From Actinomycetota bacterium (lineage in GTDB: Bacteria; Actinomycetota; Actinomycetes; Actinomycetales; Microbacteriaceae), in NCBI GenBank assembly GCA_013297625.1, contig JAAFHT010000016.1, forward strand, positions 1 through 34,146: a stretch of DNA of 34,146 nt, read 5' to 3'. Under the pieces are notes generated by a model. That model saw only the letters and a list, made by a program, of their open reading frames with translations, had not been told where the DNA came from and made no database searches. Numbering within the stretch: position 1 is the stretch's first letter; every line of letters begins with the position of its first letter. The translations under genes were made by a program, and so were the position numbers. This document shows positions 11,442-30,229 of this stretch, piece by piece.

Positions 11442-12215
11442 ATGCTCGTGCCCGACGTTCCCGCCGCTCGCGCCGCCCTGCGCATCGTCACCCACCTCGC
11501 GCACCACAATGATCCGGTGCCGGCCTCGACCCTCGCGCGTGAGTTGGAGCTGCCGCGGTCAACCGTCTACCAATTGCTGCGCGTGCTGCAAGACGAGGGC
11601 TTTGTCGTGCACTACCCCGAGGCACGGGCTTACGGCTTGGGGGCTCTCGTCGCTGAGATCGGCGGCTCGGTGTTGAGCGCCAGCCGACTCGCTCGGCTCG
11701 GCGGGCCGCTGCTCGAGCGCCTCGTGCGCGCGGCCCCCGTTCCGGTCGTCGCGCAGTTGGCCGTGCTCGCGGGTAGTGATGTCTCGTATGTCGGCCAGTC
11801 CTCGGCGCCGCGCGCACCGACCACCGTCGTGCGCGTGGGCGTTCGCCTGCCCTCCCACCTCACGGCCACGGGCCGCGCGATGCTCGCCGCACTGCCCCCG
11901 GCGCAAGTGCGCGCGCTCTTCCCCCATCGCGATTCGCTGATCACCCGCCGCGGAGTCGGGCCGCGCACCTTGCCCGAGCTTGACCGCATTCTCGCCAACG
12001 CCCGCGAGGTCGGCGTCGCGAGTGAAGACGGCGACATCACGGCGGACTACGCCTCGGTCGCGGCCACCGCCATCGACCGCACGGGCTACCCGGCCGCGGC
12101 GCTCGGGCTCACCTACCGTGCAGAAGCAGTCAGCGCCGACCAGGTGAGTACCCTGGCCGGCGCTGTGCGTGAAGCGGCAGCTTCCCTTACGGCGCGGCTG
12201 CAGGGTCGGTCGTAG
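11442..12215 (+). CDS. IclR-family transcriptional regulator of the hut cluster
   Basis: This is a 257-residue DNA-binding regulator. The N-terminal winged helix-turn-helix (~1-65) includes STLARELELPRSTVYQLLRVLQDEGFVV. The IclR effector-binding domain follows (PVPVVAQLAVLAGSDVSYVGQS; LPSHLTATGRAMLAALPP; GVASEDGDITADYASVAATAI). The ATG at 11442 has AGGGGG just upstream; the longer track start would run through hutH. It is the only confident plus-strand gene and is divergent from hutH, so it probably senses a histidine-pathway intermediate such as urocanate, which is inference. Its last 121 bp, including the stop, recur exactly at 13175-13295. Confidence 0.9.
   Translation: MLVPDVPAARAALRIVTHLAHHNDPVPASTLARELELPRSTVYQLLRVLQDEGFVVHYPEARAYGLGALVAEIGGSVLSASRLARLGGPLLERLVRAAPVPVVAQLAVLAGSDVSYVGQSSAPRAPTTVVRVGVRLPSHLTATGRAMLAALPPAQVRALFPHRDSLITRRGVGPRTLPELDRILANAREVGVASEDGDITADYASVAATAIDRTGYPAAALGLTYRAEAVSADQVSTLAGAVREAAASLTARLQGRS
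12095..12215 (+). repeat. 121-bp direct repeat, copy 1 (3' end of iclR)
   Basis: This segment is identical, base for base, to 13175-13295, offset by exactly 1080 bp. It ends at the last base of the iclR stop codon; one mismatch (t versus c) follows, then four more matching bases. It forms the left boundary of a ~0.96-kb insert. No transposase or integrase is present. Confidence 0.97.
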
Positions 12216-12315
12216 TCGCCAGCGGTCCGAACAAGGGCGCAAAGGGCGACTGAAGAGGGCCATTCACGGTCGCCGCGACGAACCGTGGGGGCCCATCGCC
12301 GGGGGCGCCCATTCA

Positions 12316-13174: not shown

Positions 13175-13295
13175 CGCGGCGCTCGGGCTCACCTACCGTG
13201 CAGAAGCAGTCAGCGCCGACCAGGTGAGTACCCTGGCCGGCGCTGTGCGTGAAGCGGCAGCTTCCCTTACGGCGCGGCTGCAGGGTCGGTCGTAG
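13175..13295 (+). repeat. 121-bp direct repeat, copy 2 (orphan iclR tail)
   Basis: This is an exact second copy of the iclR 3' end (compare 12095-12215), detached from the rest of iclR. Its antisense strand also encodes the last ~9 codons and stop of the neighbouring small 11-mer-repeat gene (13267-13506). This suggests that iclR and that gene were originally convergent and overlapped by ~29 bp before the insertion. Confidence 0.96.
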
Positions 13296-13506
13296 CCGCC
13301 TCAGCTTCGGGCTCGTCGCCGTCGAAGTGATCCTTGATGTCACCCACGACGCCCTGCGCCTTCTCGGCCGCGTCGCCCGCGAACTCCTTTACGTCGCCCG
13401 CGAACTCCTTGGCGTTATCTGCCACGTCTCCCGCGACATCCTTCGCCTTCTCGGCAACGTCGCCCGCGATGTCTTTGGCCTTGTCAACGATGTCGTCGAT
13501 ACCCAC
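13267..13506 (-). CDS. Small 11-residue-repeat helical protein (MT0933/LEA-like)
   Basis: The 79-residue product reads VGIDDIVDKAKDIAGDVAEKAKD... with repeating units such as KAKDIAGDVAE, KAKDVAGDVAD and NAKEFAGDVKE, then an acidic/Ala tail. Such 11-mer amphipathic repeats resemble the small actinobacterial proteins annotated as MT0933-like antitoxins and also LEA-type stress proteins. No toxin partner is next to it, so I would not assign antitoxin function. The start is GTG at 13506, preceded by GGAAGGA; the track start at 13596 lacks this and has unrelated sequence. The C-terminus (ATTDPAAAP) is encoded within the orphan iclR repeat. Confidence 0.7.
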   Translation of the reverse strand: MGIDDIVDKAKDIAGDVAEKAKDVAGDVADNAKEFAGDVKEFAGDAAEKAQGVVGDIKDHFDGDEPEAEAATTDPAAAP

Positions 13507-13608
13507 AGTTGGTCCTTCCTGACGGTCGGGAGCATCCCGCCGCCCCCACCATTGTGGCGAAAGACGCGACCGGGCAGAAGAGCCACCGCGACACACCCAG
13601 CAACAGCA

Positions 13609-19172: not shown

Positions 19173-19892
19173 CTACGGCGTGGGAGTAGGAGTGGGTGTT
19201 GGCGGCCCCGAGTCGGTCGGCACCGGAGTGGGCGTCGGATCGGGTTCGGGCTCCGGCTCAGGTTCGGGCGCCGGATTCACTAGGTCGTCACCGCTCACGA
19301 CATACATGACCATCGAGAACGTGATCGTTCCTGAGCCGTCACCGCTTGTCGTGTAGTCGCCGCTGGACACGATGGAGAACCGAGGTGATTTCTGCAACGC
19401 TTCGATGTAATCCAAGATCGACGACAGAGGCCCGGTAACGGTCACCGCGACGGGCACGCCCAGCAGTGAACCGGCGGGCAGGATGCCCTCCCCGTCAATT
19501 TCGGGTGCGGGAGGCTGTGCGTCCGCTTCGAGCACCAGTGGCGTAGTCGGGGCCGGCTCGTTGATCTGGATGTTCTGCAGGCCGAGACCGGCCGAGAGCA
19601 AGCGGATGAGCAGCTCTTCGATAGCGTCGTCGTATTGCGCGGCGGTCGGAAACTCTTCGCGCAAGCCCTCGAGTTCAACGAGCAACTCGTCGAGGTTCTC
19701 GAAGTCAGACTGCAACTGGGCGATCGCAGCACGCGCGACATCATTCTGCGCTTGCACGTTTCGACGTTCAGTTTCGAACCGAGCGGCATCGGCAAGCCGC
19801 GGAGAGATGCCCAAGAACCACCCGAGTGCAACCACGGCAATCATGATGAGCACCGCGGCGAAGGTCCAGATTCGAGTTGTTGCCGTGGTCAT
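19173..19892 (-). CDS. pilO: PilO-like type IV pilus alignment protein
   Basis: This is a bitopic membrane protein. It has a short cytoplasmic start, one transmembrane helix (~10-30, TFAAVLIMIAVVALGWFLGI), a coiled coil (~35-80, RRNVQAQNDVARAAIAQLQSDFENLDELLVELEGLREEF), and a ferredoxin-like domain with the PilO-type segment VTVTGPLSSILDYIEALQKSPRFSIVSSGDY. PilO pairs with PilN to link PilM to the pilus. Residues ~206-239 are an unusual tail of Pro-Glu and Pro-Thr repeats (PEPEPEPEPDPTPTP). The start overlaps pilN by 4 nt. Assignment rests on architecture and position; similarity in this family is always weak. Confidence 0.8.
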   Translation of the reverse strand: MTTATTRIWTFAAVLIMIAVVALGWFLGISPRLADAARFETERRNVQAQNDVARAAIAQLQSDFENLDELLVELEGLREEFPTAAQYDDAIEELLIRLLSAGLGLQNIQINEPAPTTPLVLEADAQPPAPEIDGEGILPAGSLLGVPVAVTVTGPLSSILDYIEALQKSPRFSIVSSGDYTTSGDGSGTITFSMVMYVVSGDDLVNPAPEPEPEPEPDPTPTPVPTDSGPPTPTPTPTP

Positions 19893-20560
19893 TCGGTCAC
19901 CTCATCCACACCAAAGCGCTGCGCGAGAGCCAGGTCATTCAGGTTGATCGTCACGGCCGTCTTGTAGCCGCTCTCTTGGAAAGTGACCGAATCAATGCTC
20001 GCGTCGGCGAAAGTCTCGATCTTCTCCCACGCGCGATACCACGTCTGGGGCGTGGGTACCTCGGCAGTCGAGATCACTATGCGAATCGTCGCCGTGCGCG
20101 GAGCACGGAGCGGACCGGTCACACCCAAGGCCGGCTGGGCGGGCGCATCAGACTGAAACGTGAGCGTATCCACAAGTTCGTCGGCGCTCAATACGGCCAA
20201 GTACGGCGTCAACGATTCGCGCCACAAGACCTCAACGGTACCCAGTTGGGCTCGAACATCCGTGATCGACTGCAGCTGACCGCGCACTTGCGTCACCTCA
20301 GCGAACTCCAACTGAGTTACGAGCAATTGCTCGGTGATAGTGCGCTCAGCAGCGAGCTGCGCTTCAGACGCCGTGGCAATGAAGGTTGACCCAACAATGC
20401 CGGCGACGGTCAGCGCAATGACGGCGATGACCGCTGTCACGAGTCCACGACGACGCCCGCGCTCTTTCTTCTGCAGGGCCACTTCGGGCGGCATGAGGTG
20501 TGCACGAGGCACACCGCCGTAGACGAGCGCCCCTGTCTCGCGGCCATCTCGACGACTCAT
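19889..20560 (-). CDS. pilN: PilN-like type IV pilus alignment protein
   Basis: This 223-residue bitopic protein has a cytoplasmic N-terminus containing HLMPPEVALQKKERGRRR, which resembles the INLLP-type PilM-binding motif of PilN. A transmembrane helix (LVTAVIAVIALTVAGIVGSTFIA) and an extracytoplasmic coiled-coil/ferredoxin-like part follow (SITDVRAQLGTVEVLWRESLTPYLAVL). I choose the ATG at 20560 (MSRRDGRETGALVYGG), which overlaps the pilM stop by 4 nt, over the track start at 20599. It should form the PilM-N-O inner-membrane complex with its neighbours. Confidence 0.8.
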   Translation of the reverse strand: MSRRDGRETGALVYGGVPRAHLMPPEVALQKKERGRRRGLVTAVIAVIALTVAGIVGSTFIATASEAQLAAERTITEQLLVTQLEFAEVTQVRGQLQSITDVRAQLGTVEVLWRESLTPYLAVLSADELVDTLTFQSDAPAQPALGVTGPLRAPRTATIRIVISTAEVPTPQTWYRAWEKIETFADASIDSVTFQESGYKTAVTINLNDLALAQRFGVDEVTE

Positions 20561-21606
20561 GCTGCGCTCCCGACGGCTAGACCGATCGCGGTAATCCACG
20601 TCTGCATTTGCTCATTGCTGTCGTGGCCGCGCATCGACCGCGCGACCGAGACACCTGCGGTGGGGTTCACCGGAACGACAGAAATACGCGTCGACTCGGC
20701 GAGCGCGCTGGCGAGCCCGCGCAGCCGAGTGGCACCGCCCGCTACCGACAAGTGATCGAACGCCACACCCGTGCGCACTCCCGCAAAGTACGCGAGGGTG
20801 TTGCGCACCGCCGTGAGCAACTCGCTCGTCGACTCGTGAATCACCTCGGCGGCCAGTCGCTCTTCATCGGTACTGCCCGCACCCGTCAGCCCCAAGTCGC
20901 GCTTGAGGGCTTCGGCCCGCTCGCGCGGCACCGAGAGTCGCGTCATGATGGCGCGCGTCGCGTCGTCACCGCCAGCGGGAACAATGCGCACGAAAAGCGG
21001 AACACCGGCTTGAACGATGACGATCGAGGTCGCATTCGCCCCGATGTTCATGTGCACCGCGAATCCGCTCGTCGGGCTCGACAGGGTGTGCACGCGGGTC
21101 ATGGCGAAGGGCAGCAGATCCATGCTCACGGGAGTGAGGCCCGCCAGCGTCGCCGCCGTGACATTGACGCTCACCGCCTGCTTGAAGGCAGCAACCAACA
21201 GCCCATTCACGATGGGCCCCGATTCGTTCTGCCCTTCCCCGATCGGGTAGTAGTCAAGAACGGCATCACTCACTGGCACGGGGAGTAGTTCTTGAACCTG
21301 GTACGGGAGCGACTCTTTGATCTGAGCGAGAGGGATGCGCGGCACGGCGAAGTCGCGCACGATGACGCTCTGCCCGCCAATGCCGAGGGCGACCTCTTTC
21401 GAGCGAAAGCCCCCCGCCGACCACAGTCGCTTGAATGCCGACGCTACGGTGTGCACCTCGAGAATCTCGCCCCGCTTCACCGAACCCTCGGGCAGCGGCA
21501 CTTCGTGGGCGCGAAGCAGAGTCGGCCGCGCTTTCGATGCGTCGTCGATCTCGACGGCGCGCAGAAACGAGCTGCCGATGTCGACACCTACTACTCCGCC
21601 AGCCAT
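20557..21606 (-). CDS. pilM: PilM, actin-like type IV pilus assembly ATPase
   Basis: PilM is a cytoplasmic actin-fold protein that binds the PilN N-terminus and is required for pilus assembly. The 349-residue product has the phosphate-1 motif VGVDIGSSFLRAVEI at the start, then GGFRSKEVALGIGGQSVIVRDFAVPRIPLAQIKESLPYQVQELLPVPV (the PilM signature), and later MNIGANATSIVIVQAGVPLFVR and HLSVAGGATRLRGLASALAE. The length matches the family. It lies 10 bp after pilD and is coupled to pilN. Confidence 0.93.
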   Translation of the reverse strand: MAGGVVGVDIGSSFLRAVEIDDASKARPTLLRAHEVPLPEGSVKRGEILEVHTVASAFKRLWSAGGFRSKEVALGIGGQSVIVRDFAVPRIPLAQIKESLPYQVQELLPVPVSDAVLDYYPIGEGQNESGPIVNGLLVAAFKQAVSVNVTAATLAGLTPVSMDLLPFAMTRVHTLSSPTSGFAVHMNIGANATSIVIVQAGVPLFVRIVPAGGDDATRAIMTRLSVPRERAEALKRDLGLTGAGSTDEERLAAEVIHESTSELLTAVRNTLAYFAGVRTGVAFDHLSVAGGATRLRGLASALAESTRISVVPVNPTAGVSVARSMRGHDSNEQMQTWITAIGLAVGSAA

Positions 21607-21616
21607 GTGTTTCTCC

Positions 21617-22444
21617 TCAGTTCAGTCCGAATAGGGCGAGGTAGCCTCGCGCAATCGGTTCGCCCAGCAGTATTCCTACCCAGGCCCCTCCCAGCATCCA
21701 CGGCCCGAAGGGTATTCCTGTGTTGCGACTCGCCCGTCGTGCCACGATCAGCGCAACGCCGACCACGCCACCCAGAATGAAGGCCGCGAGGGCGCCCACG
21801 GCGAGAGCAGCCCAGCCATACCAGCCGAGCATCAGGCCGATGACGCCCGCAAGCTTAACGTCGCCCATTCCCATGCCGCGCGGAGAGATAAGCGCGAGAG
21901 CCAAATACACCGCGAACAGGATGCCCGCACCCGCGGCAGCGCGAGCCGCCGACTCCAGATCACCCGCCGCAATCGCGGCTGCGGCAAGCAGAGCGGCGAG
22001 CACGGGGTAGGCGGGCAACACGATGGCGTCGGGCAAGCGGTGCGTGTCGAGGTCGATGGCGGTGAGGGCGATCGAGATCGACGCGAAGTAGAACAGGGCC
22101 GTGGTCACGAGGAGCACCGCGAGGGCATCCGGCATCGTGGTCGTTGCCAGGAGAGCCGGCAACTGAACGATAGCGATCGCCGCGAAGGCCAGAGCGGTCG
22201 CAAGTTCAATCAGGGGGTAGCGAATGGAGAACGGCGCCGCGCAATCGCGGCACCGGCCCCGAAGCACCAGCCACGAAACGATCGGAATGTTGTCGTAGGG
22301 CCGCACCGGAGCCGCGCATGCCGCGCACGCGCTGGGCGGGCGCACGATCGACACCCCGAGTGGCACACGGTGAATCACCACGTTCAAGAACGAGCCGATG
22401 GCGGCGCCAAACACGCCGACGAGCGTCGGCACAACGATGGTCAC
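21617..22444 (-). CDS. pilD: Prepilin peptidase / N-methyltransferase
   Basis: PilD is a membrane aspartyl protease that cleaves prepilin leaders and methylates the new N-terminus. The 275-residue product has the N-terminal domain with two CxxC pairs (C40/C43 and C65/C68), the family's zinc motif, within RPPSACAACAAPVRPYDNIPIVSWLVLRGRCRDC. It also has the two catalytic regions TAIDLDTHRLPD (~129-139) and GMGDVKLAG (~192-200). Multiple transmembrane helices are evident. It lies inside the minor-pilin/pilMNO operon, 11 bp after the large PilX-position gene, and should process PilA and the minor pilins encoded here. Confidence 0.95.
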   Translation of the reverse strand: MTIVVPTLVGVFGAAIGSFLNVVIHRVPLGVSIVRPPSACAACAAPVRPYDNIPIVSWLVLRGRCRDCAAPFSIRYPLIELATALAFAAIAIVQLPALLATTTMPDALAVLLVTTALFYFASISIALTAIDLDTHRLPDAIVLPAYPVLAALLAAAAIAAGDLESAARAAAGAGILFAVYLALALISPRGMGMGDVKLAGVIGLMLGWYGWAALAVGALAAFILGGVVGVALIVARRASRNTGIPFGPWMLGGAWVGILLGEPIARGYLALFGLN

Positions 22445-22455
22445 GCGCGAGCCGG

Positions 22456-24093
22456 TTACGCGGGTGGGTCGATGTCGGTGTATGCGACCAGCGCGCCGGG
22501 GTGTCCGGGCGTGGCGGGCCCGCCGACCGCACCTTCTCCGCCGGGGCCGCCCGCACCATTACCCAGGTCGAACCCGGGAATACCGATCGGCACGTAGGTC
22601 AACTCACTGTTGTTGGAGAACGTGACTCGGCCGCTGTAGTACTGACCTCGCCACGCGAGCTGGTTGCTGTTCTGCACGGTGCACGGGCTGTAGATCAAGA
22701 TGGCGACGGCATCGATGGTTTCGTTGCGGTTGTTGATGTCGAAGCGGCCGCACCCGGTCGTCGTCGGTCGATTATCGGCAACCGTGTCGGGCGTGATGAA
22801 CCGCAGGGCGCGGTCGAAGTTGCCAACCGAGGCGACGGTGAAGTTCTCGAGGTTGACCGTGCGCGGCATGATGAACGTCAGGTCGGTGCGCATCGACATC
22901 ACAAGGTTGGCGCTCGATGAGAACACGACCGACGTGCACCCCCGCATGTCGATGACCGTAGGGGTGGTGTAGGTACTGAAGGCGAGAACCTGGGCGTTGG
23001 TTCTCGTGCGGTTGTCAATCGTGCAGGGGCCGGTGTAGGTGCGCACGGTCCAGCCCAGGGTCTGCCAGTTGGCGGCGACGTAGTTGACGTCAATCCATCG
23101 GGGCGGGGTGGGGGCGACGACGTCGTTGCGGAAGTAAAACACAGGGTTCGCACCCGTCGTCCGCGCCACCGAACACGCGTCGCCCGCGGCATCCCAGCCC
23201 GTTGCGCCGGTGGTGCAGCGCTGGCCCCAGCTGTCGATTTCTCCGCGGGCATACACGCCACCCGAGATTCTGGTGCTCGGGTCAATGCGCGTGATGCCCG
23301 TTCCGGCCGCGATCACATCGCCGCCGATGGTCTTGTTGCCCTGCAGCCCGACGGTTCCGGAGGCCCACACATTGCCGCCAGCACTGCACGTGTTGTCGAG
23401 CTGGATGTTGCCGTTCGCGGCAACGATGTCGCCTTGGACGTAAACGCTGTTGCTGCACAAGATGTTGCCTTCGGCAACGATCACGTTGGCCGAGTTGCCG
23501 TTAAACGAGAGCAACTCAAGGCTGTTCGAGAGACCAGGCGTGCCGTAGCTGAACACCGCGGCACCCGTGACGGCCTCGGAGTTCGCTCCGGGCGTCCAGA
23601 CATACACCGCCTGCACTGCTGACTCATCGCCGGCCGACGCAGACTCGGCGACACCGGTGTCAGCCGCGAAGCCCGTTGACTGAATGCGAATCTGGGTAGT
23701 GGCCCCGTCGGGACAACCGGGCGTCCACGCGGCGCCGGCGTTGGTGCGGTGCGCAACGTTCGCGATGAAGAAGGGGTTAGCCGCGGCAGTTCCGGTCAAC
23801 GTGGGGTCAACGGCACCCTGTGTCACGGTGAGCTCTCCCGTGCCCGGGCAGTCGTCGGCGAACAACTCGGCGAGCATCGCATCGACACCCGCTTCGGCTG
23901 CGGCGTTCGACTGCACACCCGCACGGGTGAGCGAGGTGTAGCTCAACGCATCTACGGTGGCGCCGGTAACGGTCATGGTGACCATCGAGGTGACCGCAAT
24001 CAAGCCGACAACCGCGATCATGGCGTTGCCACGATCGTCTCGGCTCGCAGCACGGAGAACCCCCGTGGGGCGAACAGCACGTGTCAGAAACAT
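22456..24093 (-). CDS. Large PilX-position pilus protein, candidate tip component
   Basis: The 545-residue product has a short basic start, then a hydrophobic helix (RGNAMIAVVGLIAVTSMVTMTVTGATVDAL) and a helical continuation with QSNAAAEAGVDAMLAEL, the architecture of PilX/PilK-type minor pilins. The rest is a large extracellular region with ten cysteines (possible disulfides). The middle (VYVQGDIVAANGNIQLDN...GGNVWASGTVGLQGNKTIGGDVIAAGTG) looks like short beta-helix rungs similar to bactofilins. A Gly/Pro-rich tail (GGPGGEGAVGGPATPGHPG) nears the C-terminus. The gene overlaps the preceding prepilin gene by 10 bp; the ribosome-binding site is weak, so a slightly later start is possible. Surface adhesion or pilus-tip function is inference. 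Confidence 0.7.
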   Translation of the reverse strand: MFLTRAVRPTGVLRAASRDDRGNAMIAVVGLIAVTSMVTMTVTGATVDALSYTSLTRAGVQSNAAAEAGVDAMLAELFADDCPGTGELTVTQGAVDPTLTGTAAANPFFIANVAHRTNAGAAWTPGCPDGATTQIRIQSTGFAADTGVAESASAGDESAVQAVYVWTPGANSEAVTGAAVFSYGTPGLSNSLELLSFNGNSANVIVAEGNILCSNSVYVQGDIVAANGNIQLDNTCSAGGNVWASGTVGLQGNKTIGGDVIAAGTGITRIDPSTRISGGVYARGEIDSWGQRCTTGATGWDAAGDACSVARTTGANPVFYFRNDVVAPTPPRWIDVNYVAANWQTLGWTVRTYTGPCTIDNRTRTNAQVLAFSTYTTPTVIDMRGCTSVVFSSSANLVMSMRTDLTFIMPRTVNLENFTVASVGNFDRALRFITPDTVADNRPTTTGCGRFDINNRNETIDAVAILIYSPCTVQNSNQLAWRGQYYSGRVTFSNNSELTYVPIGIPGFDLGNGAGGPGGEGAVGGPATPGHPGALVAYTDIDPPA

Positions 24094-24662
24094 GTCGGGC
24101 TCACATTCGATTGCGGTGCACGGCCGGTCACGGTCGTGATGAAGAGCGAGCTGACTCCTGCTCCCCCGTCAACAGAGAAGCTTACGGCCATGCCGCGTGT
24201 TCCATCCAGGGCGAAAACCGGAACAGTGGTGCCCGAGTTGTCGACGATGGGCGCAACTCCTGAACTAATCGCAGTCCAGTCTGAACTGACCGACCCCGGG
24301 GCCGGCGGAACGATTGCGACGGCGCTTGAGCGCTCAAAGATCGTGCCGACCTCGTTGTCGTAGAACCAAGCCTGGCACCGAGCCGTGCCGCCAGCCGTCG
24401 TTCGCGCAATGGCGAAAACGGAGGCGCCATCGGCGTCAGGATCGATCGACACAGCGGTCGAGTTGCGAACCGTTTCTTCGATCACGTTCACGACCAGTTG
24501 ACCGTCAGTTGTCGACCCGGTGACGTCTCGGACCGTGCGGTCGGCGGTGAGGGCACTGACGATGATGCTGCCGACAACGGTCAACACGACGGCAAAGAGC
24601 GACATGGCGACGAGTAACTCTATGAGCGAGAAGCCGCGATCATTAGCGTGAGGCCGGATCAT
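24084..24662 (-). CDS. Type IV minor prepilin, PilW-like
   Basis: The 192-residue product has a short basic leader and the class III prepilin site DRG|FSLIELLVAMSLFAVVLTVVGSIIVSAL, with the hallmark Glu at position +5 after the cleavage point. The globular part (TTDGQLVVNVIEETVRNSTAVSI...) resembles PilW/PulJ-type pseudopilins. Two cysteines near the C-terminus may pair (RCQAWF, SPTCF). It overlaps the neighbouring prepilin gene by 4 nt upstream and the large pilus gene by 10 nt downstream. It is probably part of the tip-initiating minor pilin complex. Confidence 0.85.
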   Translation of the reverse strand: MIRPHANDRGFSLIELLVAMSLFAVVLTVVGSIIVSALTADRTVRDVTGSTTDGQLVVNVIEETVRNSTAVSIDPDADGASVFAIARTTAGGTARCQAWFYDNEVGTIFERSSAVAIVPPAPGSVSSDWTAISSGVAPIVDNSGTTVPVFALDGTRGMAVSFSVDGGAGVSSLFITTVTGRAPQSNVSPTCF

Positions 24663-25099
24663 GGCGTGCCCGTCAAGAAGATTTGCGTGCGGGCATCGGC
24701 AAGAACCGACTCATCAGCGTTGTTGATCGCGATGACCGTCACGGTGATGGCGCTCCCAGCGGTGCAGTTGGCCACGGTCGGAACCGTTGTGGTGACGGTG
24801 ATGGTGACACCTTGCGCGTCGACCTCTTGAGTCGTGGCGTTGAGAAGCTGGGCCGCTGCACAGTCGGCCGCACCCCGCGAGCGAGCATCATCGATCGCCT
24901 GAGATACGAGCCTGGTCGCGGTTGCCGAGGTTGAGTTGAGCTCTGAGGCGCGGAGCGCAGAGACGATAACCGGAATGAAGGCGATGGCCAGAAGGGAAAT
25001 CAAGAACATCGAGATAACGATCTCGATCAGACCAATGCCGGCATCGGCAGGTGTGGAGCGCGCGGCATCACGGCGAGAGCGGTTGCGCTCTATCGTCAT
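24659..25099 (-). CDS. Type IV minor prepilin, PilV-like
   Basis: I choose the ATG at 25099 (MTIERNRSRRDAARSTPADAG), with GGGGGGA just upstream; the longer track start would run through the pilA terminator. The 146-residue product has a ~22-residue leader ending ADAG|IGLIEIVISMFLISLLAIAFIPVIVSAL, with Glu at +5. The leader is longer than most. The globular domain is short and Thr/Val-rich (VTITVTTTVPTVANCTAGSAITVTVIAI), like PilV/PulI-type pseudopilins. First gene after the pilA terminator, coupled to the next by ATGA. Confidence 0.85.
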   Translation of the reverse strand: MTIERNRSRRDAARSTPADAGIGLIEIVISMFLISLLAIAFIPVIVSALRASELNSTSATATRLVSQAIDDARSRGAADCAAAQLLNATTQEVDAQGVTITVTTTVPTVANCTAGSAITVTVIAINNADESVLADARTQIFLTGTP

Positions 25100-25168
25100 G
25101 ATCCCCCCGATCGCTCGTGCATATGAACTTGGTGGAGCTAGGTGAAGCGAGTTCTTGCGAAAACCGTA

Positions 25169-25226: not shown

Positions 25227-25640
25227 TTACGGCGCCGCGCAGGCCTGCGGGGCCGGGCCCGCCGCGCCGCTACCGACGCTAAAGACGGTGCCGCTTGCGC
25301 TGGTCGCCTGGAGGCAGAACGTGCGACCACCGGTAATGATGGACACGCTTGCCGGGAAGCCGAGGTCGGTGAGCGCCGTCGGAGCAGAACCTGCGGCAAC
25401 AGGCGACGGGCCGTTGGGGCTCGCGACGAGCGAGCTCACGACAGCGACCTTGGCGGTCGCGAGGTCGGAGATAGCCGCCGAGTTCTGCGCCTGCGCCTGC
25501 TGGCCGAGGAAGACCGGCACAGCGATGGCGGCGAGGATGCCGATGATGATGACGACAACGAGAAGCTCGATCAGGGTGAAGCCCTTGTCGTTCTTCTCGA
25601 TGCGGTTGAGGCGGTTCTCAAGAGCGGTACGAATGGACAT
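25227..25640 (-). CDS. pilA: Major type IV pilin
   Basis: The 137-residue product has a leader MSIRTALENRLNRIEKNDKG| followed by FTLIELLVVVIIIGILAAIAVPVFLGQQAQAQNSAAISDL, a textbook type IV pilin N-terminal helix with Phe at +1 and Glu at +5. The globular part is compact, with two cysteines (RTFCLQA, APQACAAP) that could form the C-terminal disulfide loop. The ATG at 25640 is chosen over the track start at 25697; AAAGGAAA lies upstream. Its own upstream region and a strong terminator suggest high, separate expression as the pilus subunit. Confidence 0.95.
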   Translation of the reverse strand: MSIRTALENRLNRIEKNDKGFTLIELLVVVIIIGILAAIAVPVFLGQQAQAQNSAAISDLATAKVAVVSSLVASPNGPSPVAAGSAPTALTDLGFPASVSIITGGRTFCLQATSASGTVFSVGSGAAGPAPQACAAP

Positions 25641-25680
25641 GTGTCCGTTTCCTTTCCCATCAAATGAAGGTTGATAGGTG

Positions 25681-25713
25681 GGCCCCCCACGGAACATGAA
25701 ACCGGCCCCCCAC
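25681..25713. promoter_or_regulatory. Direct repeats upstream of pilA
   Basis: The decamer ggccccccac occurs at 25681-25690 and again at 25704-25713, centre-to-centre 23 bp, about two helical turns, in the 140-bp gap between pilC and pilA. The first copy extends into the near-palindrome gtgggccccccac. It could bind a regulator or be part of the pilA 5' leader. I found no convincing -10/-35 nearby. Confidence 0.35.
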
Positions 25714-25780: not shown

Positions 25781-27010
25781 CTAGATCTGGTTAAAGATGT
25801 CGAAGATGGGCAAGTAGAGCGCCACGATCATGCCGCCGAGAATGACGCCGAGGAAGGCGATCATCAGCGGCTCGATGAGCGAGGTCAAAGCTTCGGTCGT
25901 GCTTTGTACTTCGCTGTCATAGAAGTCGGCGATCTTTTCGAGCATCGTCTCGAGGGCACCCGAGTCTTCACCGACGGCAATCATCTGCGTCACCATGCTC
26001 GGAAAAATCGGCTGAAGCGCGAGCGGTGCGGCGATCGTTCGACCCTGTCGCACAGAGTCTTGCACCGCTTGCACCGATTGCTCGATCTGCCAGTTGCCCG
26101 AGGTAGAGCCCACGATCGAGAGGGCCTGCAGAATCGGAACGCCCGAGCCGATCATGGTTCCGAAGTTGCGCGTGAAACGGGCGATAGCGATCTTCTTGAA
26201 GAGGTCACCAAAGACCGGCATCTTGAGCAAGAGAGGTTCCCACACCGACCGAAACTTCGGAGTGTGACGATTCGCCCGCCACCAGATGGTGCCCACTATT
26301 GCGCCGATCACGACGACCGGACCGAGCCACACCATGTTTTGTGAGATAACGACAAGGATGCGCGTCGGAACCGGCAACTCGCCACCGAGGTCAGCGAAGA
26401 GATCTTCGAAGACGGGAACGATGAACAAGATCATGCCGACGACGGCCAAGAGCGCCATGATCAGCACGACAACGGGATACGTCAAGGCCGACTTGATCGT
26501 CGCCTTGAGCTCGACCTCTTTCTCGTAGTTCTTTGCAACCGAGTCGAGCGAAGTCTCGAGGAAGCCGCCCACCTCGCCCGCGCGCACGAGGTTGAGGAAG
26601 ATCGGAGGAAACTCTCGCGGGTGCTTCGCGAGCGCGTCAGAGAACGTGCTTCCGCCTTCGACGGAACCGCGGACATCATCGAGCGTCGATGCGAGCTTCG
26701 GGTTCTCCGACTGATCAGCGAGGATCGTGAGTGCCTTGAGCAGCGGAAGGCCGGCGCCGATCATGGTCGCGAGCTGACGGCTCATGACCGAGAGATCTTT
26801 GATCGAGACCTTCTTGTCGAAGATTCCGCCCATGGAGAGGTCGCGGTTGAGCCCGGTGCCGGCGGCAACTTGCTTGATCGAGACGGGAGCGATGCCCATG
26901 GTGCGCAAGCGTGCGACGACGGACGACTCGCCCGTAGCATCCACCCGCCCCTTGACGAGCTTGCCGCTCGAGTCGCGGCCTGTGTACTCGAATGTGAGGG
27001 TGGCAGCCAC
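25781..27010 (-). CDS. pilC: PilC, pilus inner-membrane platform protein
   Basis: PilC is the polytopic membrane platform on which PilB and PilT act. The 409-residue product has two T2SSF repeats: the first (~70-195) includes MSRQLATMIGAGLPLLKALTILADQSENPKL and FPPIFLNLVRAGEVGGFLETSLDSVAKNYEKE; the second (~275-400) includes FTRNFGTMIGSGVPILQALSIV and MVTQMIAVGEDSGALETMLEKIADFYDSEV. Three transmembrane segments follow the usual pattern. The start is GTG, overlapping the pilT stop (TAGTG), with GGAGGA upstream. Standard length. Confidence 0.95.
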   Translation of the reverse strand: MAATLTFEYTGRDSSGKLVKGRVDATGESSVVARLRTMGIAPVSIKQVAAGTGLNRDLSMGGIFDKKVSIKDLSVMSRQLATMIGAGLPLLKALTILADQSENPKLASTLDDVRGSVEGGSTFSDALAKHPREFPPIFLNLVRAGEVGGFLETSLDSVAKNYEKEVELKATIKSALTYPVVVLIMALLAVVGMILFIVPVFEDLFADLGGELPVPTRILVVISQNMVWLGPVVVIGAIVGTIWWRANRHTPKFRSVWEPLLLKMPVFGDLFKKIAIARFTRNFGTMIGSGVPILQALSIVGSTSGNWQIEQSVQAVQDSVRQGRTIAAPLALQPIFPSMVTQMIAVGEDSGALETMLEKIADFYDSEVQSTTEALTSLIEPLMIAFLGVILGGMIVALYLPIFDIFNQI

Positions 27011-28455
27011 TATCGGGTTCCTCCGAATCCGTCAGTGAAGGGCGTGGGGGCGGCTCCGGCAGGCGCTCCGGTGCGGTGAACCAAGCGGTTGAAGTTCTCG
27101 GGTTCTTGCATTTTCGCTTGGGCGGCTTCGTAGCTCACCATGTGGCTGTTGACGAGGTCGGCAAGGTGTTGGTCCATCGTGTGCATGCCTGCCTCGCGCC
27201 CGGCTTGCAGCGCTGAAGGGATCTGGTAGGTCTTTCCTTCGCGGATCAGGTTGGCAATAGCGCCCGTGGTCATCATGATCTCGGTTGCAATGATTCGACC
27301 TTGGCCCGAGGCGCGGGGCAGCAGGGTTTGACACACCACACCCTGCAGCGTGAGCGCGAGCTGCGAGCGCACCTGGGTCTGCTGGTGCGGGGGGAAGACA
27401 TCGATGATGCGGTCGACGGTTTGAGCGGCCGACTGCGTGTGCAAGGTCGCGAAGACGAGGTGACCCGTCTCGGCGGCGGTCAACGCGGTAGAGATCGTTT
27501 CGAGGTCACGAAGCTCGCCGATGAGGATGACGTCAGGGTCTTGACGCAACACCCGACGGAGCGCGTCGGCGAACGAGTGCGTGTCGCTGCCCACCTCGCG
27601 TTGATTGACGAGCGCTCGCTGGTTGTGGTGCACGAACTCGATCGGGTCTTCAATCGTGACGATGTGATCGGCGCGCGACTTGTTGACGAGGTCAATCAAG
27701 GCTGCGAGGGTTGTCGACTTTCCCGAACCGGTTGGCCCCGTCACGAGCACAAGCCCGCGCGGCAGCGTGGCGAACTTTGACACGACGCTCGGCACGCCCA
27801 ACTGCTTGAGCGACTTGATCTCGGTGGGAATGAGACGGAAAGCGCCCGCCATCGCCTCGCGGTCTTTGAAGATGTTGACGCGGAAGCGGTCACCACCCCG
27901 CGGGCTGATCGCGATGTCAAGTTCCCACTCGGTGAGAAAGCTCTCGCGCTGGCGGGGCGTCATGATGCTGTGCAAGATCGCCGTGACCTCAGCGCGGCTC
28001 CACACCATCGAGTTCGCCGCCGGGCGCAACTCGCCGTCGATGCGAATCATGGGCGGGGCATCCCCCGCCACATGGAGGTCAGAAGCACCGCGAGCGACCA
28101 CGTCATCGAGCGCTGCGAGCAGAGCCGGGTGGATTCCGGCCATGACGCCTCCTGCGACGGCGGGAGGCGGCGGAGCAAGCACGGGAACGAGGCCGGCGGG
28201 CGGTGCTCCGGGCTCAGGCGCAGCGATCGGTTGCTGGCCCACCGGTGGGGGCGGGCTCAGGTGCGCCATCTCGGCCGAGAAGTCGGGGAGCGACGCCGAG
28301 GGGCTCGGAAGAGGAGGCACCGCCATCGGCGACGAGAGCGAGGCGGCGTTCGCAGCCGCAACGGCTGAACTTTCGTCGGCGGTCACCGACCAGACGCGGC
28401 GTGTGCCCGGGCTAGCGCTGTCGGCCGGCAATCCGAGTCCTAGCGAGTCGGTCAT
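27010..28455 (-). CDS. pilT: PilT retraction ATPase with long N-terminal extension
   Basis: PilT is the hexameric ATPase that depolymerises the pilus. Residues ~105-460 form the conserved core: ASDLHVAGDAPPMIRIDGEL, Walker A GPTGSGKST (240-248), Asp box TIEDPIEFVH, Walker B DPDVILIGELRD (306-317), and the His box GHLVFATLHTQSA. The retraction motif usually written AIRNLIRE reads AIANLIRE (399-406). Before the core is a ~105-residue Pro/Ala/Ser-rich, probably disordered region that ordinary PilT (~345-360 residues) lacks. I choose the ATG at 28455 (MTDSLGLGLPADSA), with GAGGGGAAG upstream, over the track start at 28509. It lies between pilB and pilC. Confidence 0.93.
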   Translation of the reverse strand: MTDSLGLGLPADSASPGTRRVWSVTADESSAVAAANAASLSSPMAVPPLPSPSASLPDFSAEMAHLSPPPPVGQQPIAAPEPGAPPAGLVPVLAPPPPAVAGGVMAGIHPALLAALDDVVARGASDLHVAGDAPPMIRIDGELRPAANSMVWSRAEVTAILHSIMTPRQRESFLTEWELDIAISPRGGDRFRVNIFKDREAMAGAFRLIPTEIKSLKQLGVPSVVSKFATLPRGLVLVTGPTGSGKSTTLAALIDLVNKSRADHIVTIEDPIEFVHHNQRALVNQREVGSDTHSFADALRRVLRQDPDVILIGELRDLETISTALTAAETGHLVFATLHTQSAAQTVDRIIDVFPPHQQTQVRSQLALTLQGVVCQTLLPRASGQGRIIATEIMMTTGAIANLIREGKTYQIPSALQAGREAGMHTMDQHLADLVNSHMVSYEAAQAKMQEPENFNRLVHRTGAPAGAAPTPFTDGFGGTR

Positions 28456-28564
28456 GGTCTTCCCCTCGTTCTTGCGTGGTGCGAGTGCGATGCCCAACGG
28501 CCCTGCCATGCGATTGTTGCGCGGCCTCGCCCCCTAACGGTGCCGCGACAGTTGCCGCGTGTCG

Positions 28565-30229
28565 TCAGGCAACCACGCGCAGAACCTCTTCGATCGACGT
28601 CAGACCCGCACGTACTTTTGCCCAGCCGTCTTGCCGCAGAGTCAGCATGCCCTGTGCCGTGGCGGTGTGCATAATCTCAACACTCGATGCCCGCGAGACC
28701 GCGAGCCGTTCGATCTCTTCGCTCACCATCATGACCTCGTGCAAGGCCAAGCGGCCGCGGTAGCCGGTGCCCGAGCACGCTGAACAGCCGACCGCGTGAT
28801 AGAACCGCGGGCTGAACTCGTCTTCACGTCGCCCGAAGCCCAAGTGATCGAGATGCGTCATGTCGTACTCCTGCAACTGCTTGCAGCGGTCGCAGAGCTT
28901 GCGGGCGAGACGCTGAGCGACGACACAGTCAAGGGCAGAGCCCACGAGGAACGGCTCGATATCCATTTCGATAAGTCGAGTGATCGCGCTGGGTGCATCG
29001 TTCGTGTGCAGGGTCGACAGCACGAGGTGACCCGTCAGTGACGCCTCGATGGCGATCTGAGCGGTCTCTTGGTCGCGAATCTCACCAATGAGCACAACGT
29101 CAGGGTCAGAACGAAGGATGCTGCGCAGGGCGCTCGCAAAGGTCAAGCCCGCCTTCGGGTTGACCTGCACCTGGTTGATGCCGACCATGCGGTATTCGAC
29201 CGGGTCTTCAACCGTGATGACGTTGATCTCGGGTCGAGCGACCGCGTGCAAGGTCGTGTAGAGCGTCGTCGACTTACCAGAGCCGGTCGGCCCGGTGACG
29301 AGAATCATGCCGTAAGGCTTGGTGTACGAGTTGCGGTAGACCGTCAGGTTGCGGTCGAGCATGCCGAGGTCGCCAATGTCACGACGCGTCGCATTGTTGT
29401 CGAGAATACGCATGACGACCTTTTCGCCCCACACGGTCGGCAGGGTGGCCACGCGCAAGTCGATCACTTCGCCGCCGTGCTGCACCGACATGCGGCCGTC
29501 TTGCGGGCGACGCCGCTCAGCGATGTTGATGTCGCTCATGATCTTCAGTCGCGAGATCACGCCGTTCTGGATGTTCTTGGGGGCCTGCTGCACATCGTGC
29601 AGAACACCGTCGATGCGGTATCGCACACGCATCTCAAACTCACCCGGTTCGATGTGAATGTCAGATGCAAGGTCTTGAATCGCCTGGCCGATGATGAGGT
29701 TGACGAAGCGAACGATCGGCGCATCGTCGGCATCGGCTTCGCGCAAAGCCAGTTCGTCGACCTTGCTCGGCGCCGACTCTTCTTGAATCGCGGTCGAGAG
29801 GTCGCTCAGCTCGTTGTCGGCGCGGTGCAAGCGGTTGATGGCTGCAGTGAGGTCATTGCGTTCGGCGACGACAGCGACAACGTGCATGCGCGTAAGGGCT
29901 CGCACGTCGTCCATGGCCAGAACGTCGCCCGGTTCAACCATGGCAAGAGTGATGGTCGTCGGCGTGGCATGGATGGGCAGGATGTTGTGCCGCCGGCACA
30001 GCTGCGCCGGAACGAGCGCCACCGCAGTGCGGTCGACCGGGTACTCGGCTAGCTCAACGAACGAAAGCCCAGCAACCTCAGCCTTGGCCGACGCAACCTG
30101 GGAGGGAGTGACGAGTCCGCGCTCGACAAAATCGCCGACGACGACCTCGTCGCCTTCTTCACGAAGCTTGTCGAGAGTCTCGATCGGCAGTAGCCCACGA
30201 ATGATGAGCACTTCACTGACGGAAACCAC
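28565..30229 (-). CDS. pilB: PilB pilus extension ATPase
   Basis: PilB powers pilus polymerisation. The 554-residue product has an N-terminal GspE/MshE-like domain (~1-130), then the ATPase core: Walker A GPTGSGKST (313-321), Asp box TVEDPVEYRM, Walker B DPDVVLIGEIRD (375-386), and the His box GHLVLSTLHTNDA. A zinc tetracysteine is present (C446/C449 in CDRC, C482/C485 in CSAC). The start is GTG at 30229, with GGGGGGAGGG upstream. First gene of the pilus locus, ~110 bp before pilT. Confidence 0.96.
   Translation of the reverse strand: MVSVSEVLIIRGLLPIETLDKLREEGDEVVVGDFVERGLVTPSQVASAKAEVAGLSFVELAEYPVDRTAVALVPAQLCRRHNILPIHATPTTITLAMVEPGDVLAMDDVRALTRMHVVAVVAERNDLTAAINRLHRADNELSDLSTAIQEESAPSKVDELALREADADDAPIVRFVNLIIGQAIQDLASDIHIEPGEFEMRVRYRIDGVLHDVQQAPKNIQNGVISRLKIMSDINIAERRRPQDGRMSVQHGGEVIDLRVATLPTVWGEKVVMRILDNNATRRDIGDLGMLDRNLTVYRNSYTKPYGMILVTGPTGSGKSTTLYTTLHAVARPEINVITVEDPVEYRMVGINQVQVNPKAGLTFASALRSILRSDPDVVLIGEIRDQETAQIAIEASLTGHLVLSTLHTNDAPSAITRLIEMDIEPFLVGSALDCVVAQRLARKLCDRCKQLQEYDMTHLDHLGFGRREDEFSPRFYHAVGCSACSGTGYRGRLALHEVMMVSEEIERLAVSRASSVEIMHTATAQGMLTLRQDGWAKVRAGLTSIEEVLRVVA

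Follow-up and report, generated by a model that had tools for sequence, protein, structure and literature searches.

A likely tip-capping minor pilin with a predicted β-solenoid in the type IVa pilus operon of a Microcella-like actinobacterium

The type IVa pilus (T4aP) operon of a Microcella-like actinobacterium encodes, as the last member of its minor-pilin set, a 545-residue modular pilin that lacks glutamate at mature position 5 (Glu5) and carries a large predicted β-solenoid; we call this protein X545. We think it rather likely that X545 is the K-type pilin that caps the tip of the pilus, and that it shows a disulfide-stapled solenoid there for the first contact with a target. The gene occupies positions 22456–24093 of the window (the whole 34,146 bp stretch of DNA that was analysed) and has 545 codons, exactly the reading frame given in the preliminary description of this DNA. 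It lies on the minus strand; a plus-strand reading of 22456–24093 was rejected, as no reading frame is open there. The host genome is closest to Microcella (Microbacteriaceae), and the nearest relatives in the named genome collection are Microbacterium, Microcella and Microbacteriaceae metagenome assemblies.

The X545 gene is part of a complete T4aP operon on the minus strand with the order pilB-pilT-pilC-pilA-pilV-pilW-X545-pilD-pilM-pilN-pilO. The genes for the extension ATPase PilB (28565–30229), the retraction ATPase PilT (27010–28509, identified by its own sequence and its place in the operon), the platform protein PilC (25781–27010) and the major pilin PilA (25227–25697) are followed by those for an I-like, PilV-like minor pilin (24659–25108; NCBIfam type_IV_pilV at 4.1e-5, which is under the cut-off) and a J-like, PilW-like minor pilin (24084–24662). 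The 3′ end of the pilW-like gene overlaps the start of X545 by 10 bp, and only 11 bp separate X545 from pilD (21617–22444), which encodes an A24 prepilin peptidase. Beyond it lie pilM (20557–21606), a pilN-like gene (19889–20599) that has no family match and is assigned by position and synteny only, and a pilO-like gene (19173–19892) assigned by a weak PilO match (0.027) and synteny. The C-terminal tail of the PilO-like protein is rich in Pro, Thr and Glu, a long Glu/Pro stretch being followed by a Pro/Thr-rich one (window 19173–19290; EPEPEPEPDPTPTP...), and is perhaps a cell-wall-spanning segment. The arrangement with X545 between pilW and pilD is kept in about 20 relatives, always in that slot; several relatives also have an extra PilA-like gene directly upstream of pilB. 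The location in a minor-pilin operon that had been noticed earlier is thus borne out, and so is the view of the protein as a minor pilin at the pilX position with a large ectodomain of its own, which is here a predicted β-solenoid. Elsewhere in the window, two copies of a 126-nt direct repeat (12095–12220 and 13175–13300; 99% identical and 1080 bp apart) flank a small lipoprotein-like gene, with no tRNA at the repeat, and positions 13267–13596 encode a small acidic protein made of imperfect 33-bp (11-residue) KAKDVAGDVAE-like repeats.

The N-terminal part of X545 has the character of a pilin. Residues 1–22 (24028–24093, minus strand) form a prepilin leader that ends in DDRG; G22 is conserved in at least 90% of 68 aligned sequences, and most relatives begin with MFL or MLL. 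Cleavage after G22 by the adjacently encoded PilD, which we infer from this motif, would give a mature protein that begins NAMIA and has alanine at +5. Glutamate at +5 is found in none of 89 full-length X545 relatives (0/89), and the operon's own PilA, PilV and PilW all have Glu5. Residues 23–78 (23860–24027, minus strand) are the α1 helix, with an AAAEAG motif; it is uninterrupted from 21 to 78 in the better of two AlphaFold models, is the best conserved segment of X545 across the 68 sequences, and is common to the other actinobacterial proteins that occupy this slot. The cleavage motif and the helix together agree with the pilin-like hydrophobic N-terminus seen at first reading. Pfam N_methyl does not match X545, and a modular-pilin survey based on that canonical signature (IPR012902) would miss the protein because it lacks it.

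Residues 79–177 (23563–23859, minus strand) are the pilin head, with strands at 108–116, 134–142 and 157–167, and residues 178–509 (22567–23562, minus strand) are the predicted β-solenoid module, which has bactofilin/YdcK-like rungs and contains eight cysteines (213, 236, 293, 307, 357, 386, 448 and 471). Both AlphaFold models place a β-solenoid after the pilin head; the second, made from 68 sequences (pLDDT 78.8, pTM 0.62), has many short solenoid-typical strands between 180 and 500, then a last strand at 531–541 that is predicted with confidence. Structure prediction had been proposed as a check, with a pilin helix and a β-helix as the expected outcome, and the helix, the head strands and the β-solenoid were all predicted. 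Residues 510–530 (22504–22566, minus strand) form a variable Gly/Pro-rich linker (28% family gaps, pLDDT ~40–46), which is followed by the conserved last β-strand, residues 531–541 (22471–22503, minus strand; pLDDT ~92, 7% gaps across 68 sequences). This strand probably returns to the pilin sheet, although its pairing with the sheet is not seen in the model; a coevolution analysis of it (mean-field DCA with an effective 58 sequences) did not recover a control hairpin, and its result was discarded for that reason. The collagen-like Gly/Pro tail of the preliminary description is replaced by this short linker: the longest G-X-Y run in X545 is 4 triplets, the Gly/Pro enrichment of 510–530 is confined to close relatives, and a conserved strand comes after it.

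X545 has exactly ten cysteines, as first counted. C82, C127, C213, C236, C357 and C386 are invariant in a 23-member family alignment; in the 68-member alignment four of these (213, 236, 357 and 386) stay invariant, and each of 82, 127 and 471 is present in 67/68. C293 and C307 co-occur (both in 12/68, neither in 56/68), and the number of cysteines is even in 83 of 89 relatives. Such a pattern is expected of an exported protein with disulfides, and from it we infer the pairs themselves; C82 and C127 are probably one of them, and C213–C236, C293–C307, C357–C386 and C448–C471 are the further candidates. The mature protein is acidic, with one lysine, a net charge of −17 and a pI of 4.4 (median 5.0 over 89 relatives). 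By the standard of its operon, X545 is not an unusually fast-evolving protein (median 77% in close relatives vs. 65% for PilW and 62% for PilO), so a host-driven adhesin arms race is not suggested.

When the X545 sequence was searched alone it matched no Pfam family at E 0.1, and Pfam plus NCBIfam gave nothing significant; X545 itself does not match a curated GspK or PilX model. Its relatives do so weakly: NCBIfam GspK matches 17 of the 23 family members (best 2.6e-5) and Pfam PilX_N matches one of them (8.7e-4). YdcK weakly matches 7/23, and Pfam Bactofilin weakly matches nine, X545 not among them (best E 5.5e-5); the 68-member profile finds a YdcK structure at 1.9e-4 and the bactofilin 2n3d at E 0.0017. 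The bactofilin-like rungs that had been noticed by eye are therefore supported by the relatives and by the family profile, but not by X545 alone. This short-rung β-helix similarity covers one part of the module, and X545 differs from bactofilin, a free cytoplasmic polymer, in being an exported pilin fusion. X545 is K-type by its features and not by a model, and a K-type pilin need not match the curated GspK/PilX models: like GspK and PilX it lacks Glu5, comes last in the minor-pilin set after I- and J-like genes and has the weak profile match just described, but the insert of GspK is α-helical whereas that of X545 is a predicted β-solenoid, and no PilY1 gene follows X545. Searches of phage and plasmid collections found no match to X545, a viral structure library gave nothing below E 0.001 for the X545 model, and a search of the open-access literature, which does not cover most subscription journals, found no paper on this family.

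The closest structural counterpart is ComZ of Thermus thermophilus, a GspK-like pilin with a β-solenoid inserted between its penultimate and last strands, for which DNA binding has been shown and a position at the pilus tip argued (PMC6561018). ComZ (6qvi) was the sole solved structure below E 0.001 in Foldseek searches with both X545 models (E 6e-6 and probability 1.00 for the best chains), in keeping with the pilin module plus β-solenoid that the models predict. The two superpose poorly overall, with a TM-score of 0.24–0.28 (better model) at 12–14% identity, which does not demonstrate a ComZ-like insertion topology. The two proteins are alike as GspK-like pilins with a large β-solenoid and a proposed tip position; they differ in that X545 has one lysine, conserved and probably paired cysteines and a monoderm host, whereas ComZ binds DNA through lysines (K98 and K233; PMC6561018).

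These data suggest the following scheme. X545 would be a K-type (GspK/PilX-class) minor pilin of the type IVa pilus of this Microcella-like actinobacterium, whose leader PilD would cut after G22. K-type pilins, which lack Glu5, prime assembly and cap the filament, no subunit being accommodated above them (PMC9934059). Since X545 lacks Glu5 it should be unable to take a subunit above it, and would thus be first-assembled, in a complex with PilV and PilW, and remain as the cap; the tip position is likely in view of the missing Glu5 and the predicted fold, which is ComZ-like. Its head would bear the disulfide-stapled β-solenoid of ~330 residues, which, following the ComZ plan, would interrupt the pilin sheet ahead of its final strand. 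With extension by PilB and retraction by PilT, the solenoid would then lie at the distal end of the filament and would touch the target first. As a best, weak guess, its ligand would most likely be a surface or polysaccharide, in adhesion, with DNA capture next, this order being preferred because exposed X545 is acidic and has a single lysine; adhesion is plausible, and DNA capture is likewise a candidate function.

X545-like proteins are present in 76 of 400 Microbacteriaceae genomes (E 1e-10), and within the class 48 of 395 genomes give X545-like matches (E 0.001), many of these matches spanning the helix and head only. PilM is found in 46 of these 48 genomes (84 of the 395 have PilM in all; Fisher p 3e-34), and 42 of 46 match positions fall within ~15 kb of pilM. 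One genome of the set has two T4P loci (G251, contig C10), each with its own X545-like pilin adjoining pilM. Profile comparison with one of the helix/head-only groups (hhalign 98.5%, E 1.9e-15, columns 6–173, the ectodomain not being significant) indicates that the pilin part of X545 is homologous to other actinobacterial slot proteins and that the ectodomain is not. Three same-genus genomes that have PilM and no X545 carry in the slot a Glu5-less protein of 587–597 residues with an HSND motif (L166:9641–11431, L167:9695–11479 and L168:9510–11270), whose N-terminus is related to that of X545 (hhalign 95.5%, 76 columns) but whose ectodomain is different; DUF4900 matches one of the three, non-significantly (E 0.094). 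In a tree of PilB+PilC+PilM+PilD the operons of the alternative type form their own lineage (support 100), which lies between X545-like-carrying operons of other families and the Microbacteriaceae operons with moderate support (73) and few outgroups. The tree, within the reach of that support and those outgroups, is consistent with replacement of the slot ectodomain; a clean swap inside one operon is not claimed, since the alternative type is its own operon lineage.

PilY1, the tip adhesin of diderm T4aP, has been reported absent from monoderms (PMC9934059). None is present in the locus, as the preliminary description stated, and X545 has no Pfam match to PilY1 (PF05567); no PF05567 match was found in this genome nor in 395 genomes of the class, in a search whose positive control gave no match, so absence over the class is not proven. 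We tentatively propose, as a possibility that may well not hold, that in actinobacterial T4aP the cap pilin without Glu5 serves, in place of PilY1, as a swappable display platform in which one slot combines a conserved carrier with different β-rich ectodomains. X545 is a modular pilin in the broad sense of an extra module on a pilin module, and the idea that a minor pilin carries its own adhesive domain, earlier put forward as a new solution for monoderms, holds for the large ectodomain but not for its novelty: the concept is known from Streptococcus sanguinis, a monoderm whose modular pilins PilB and PilC are adhesive (PMC8179133, PMC9934059). Both systems display a binding module, a putative one in X545, on minor pilins of a monoderm T4aP without PilY1. 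In S. sanguinis, however, the vWA and lectin modules are on pilins other than the Glu5-less one (PilC has Glu5, and PilA has neither Glu5 nor a module), whereas X545 is the Glu5-less pilin itself, its module is a predicted β-solenoid and its pilus is an actinobacterial T4aP.

X545 could instead be a ComZ-like DNA receptor for natural transformation, whose solenoid binds DNA that PilT pulls in and ComEA/ComEC import. We take this seriously but judge it unlikely. The only match to the models below E 0.001 is a DNA-binding tip pilin, and the genome has comEC with an adjacent comEA (SLBB plus helix-hairpin-helix); moreover, an N_methyl search of the genome revealed no pilin cluster besides this one, its sole other find being an isolated canonical pilin gene with Glu5, off the operon (G000, contig C7; L145:1456–1860), so the X545 filament would be the obvious one if the cell is competent. 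However, the lysines through which ComZ binds DNA contrast with the single lysine and acidic charge of X545 and the low pI of its relatives, and comEC and SLBB proteins are not diagnostic because the control Corynebacterium glutamicum has them too. It is less probable still that X545 is an assembly-priming cap only, with the solenoid as a rigid spacer that has no specific ligand. The priming role of K-type pilins and the strong conservation of the helix fit such a part, but the 330-residue module is kept family-wide and a sister operon lineage has another large module in this slot, which suggests selection on the part that is displayed.

The GspK model matches to 17 of the 23 members might also be read as marking a pseudopilin of a type II-like secretion system and not of a pilus. 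We consider this very improbable: the operon has the retraction ATPase PilT and PilM, the X545 model lacks the GspK-type α-helical insert, and the host cell is presumably a monoderm with no outer membrane for secretion. Least credible of all is the reading, to which the Bactofilin profile matches in relatives would point, of X545 as a cytoskeletal bactofilin that is anchored in the membrane and has no relation to pili; the prepilin leader, the pilin head, conserved paired cysteines as expected of an exported protein and the strict linkage to pil genes all speak against it.

All actinobacterial type IV pili that had been studied by 2019 belonged to the Flp/Tad class (PMC6916266). What appears to be new here is a tip-pilin family of actinobacterial T4aP together with its swappable slot. 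If X545 is the K-type cap that we think likely, this conserved family is a concrete candidate for what these pili hold, and X545 links ComZ, GspK and the modular pilins, in each of which the capping or tip subunit is a place of attachment for extra domains.
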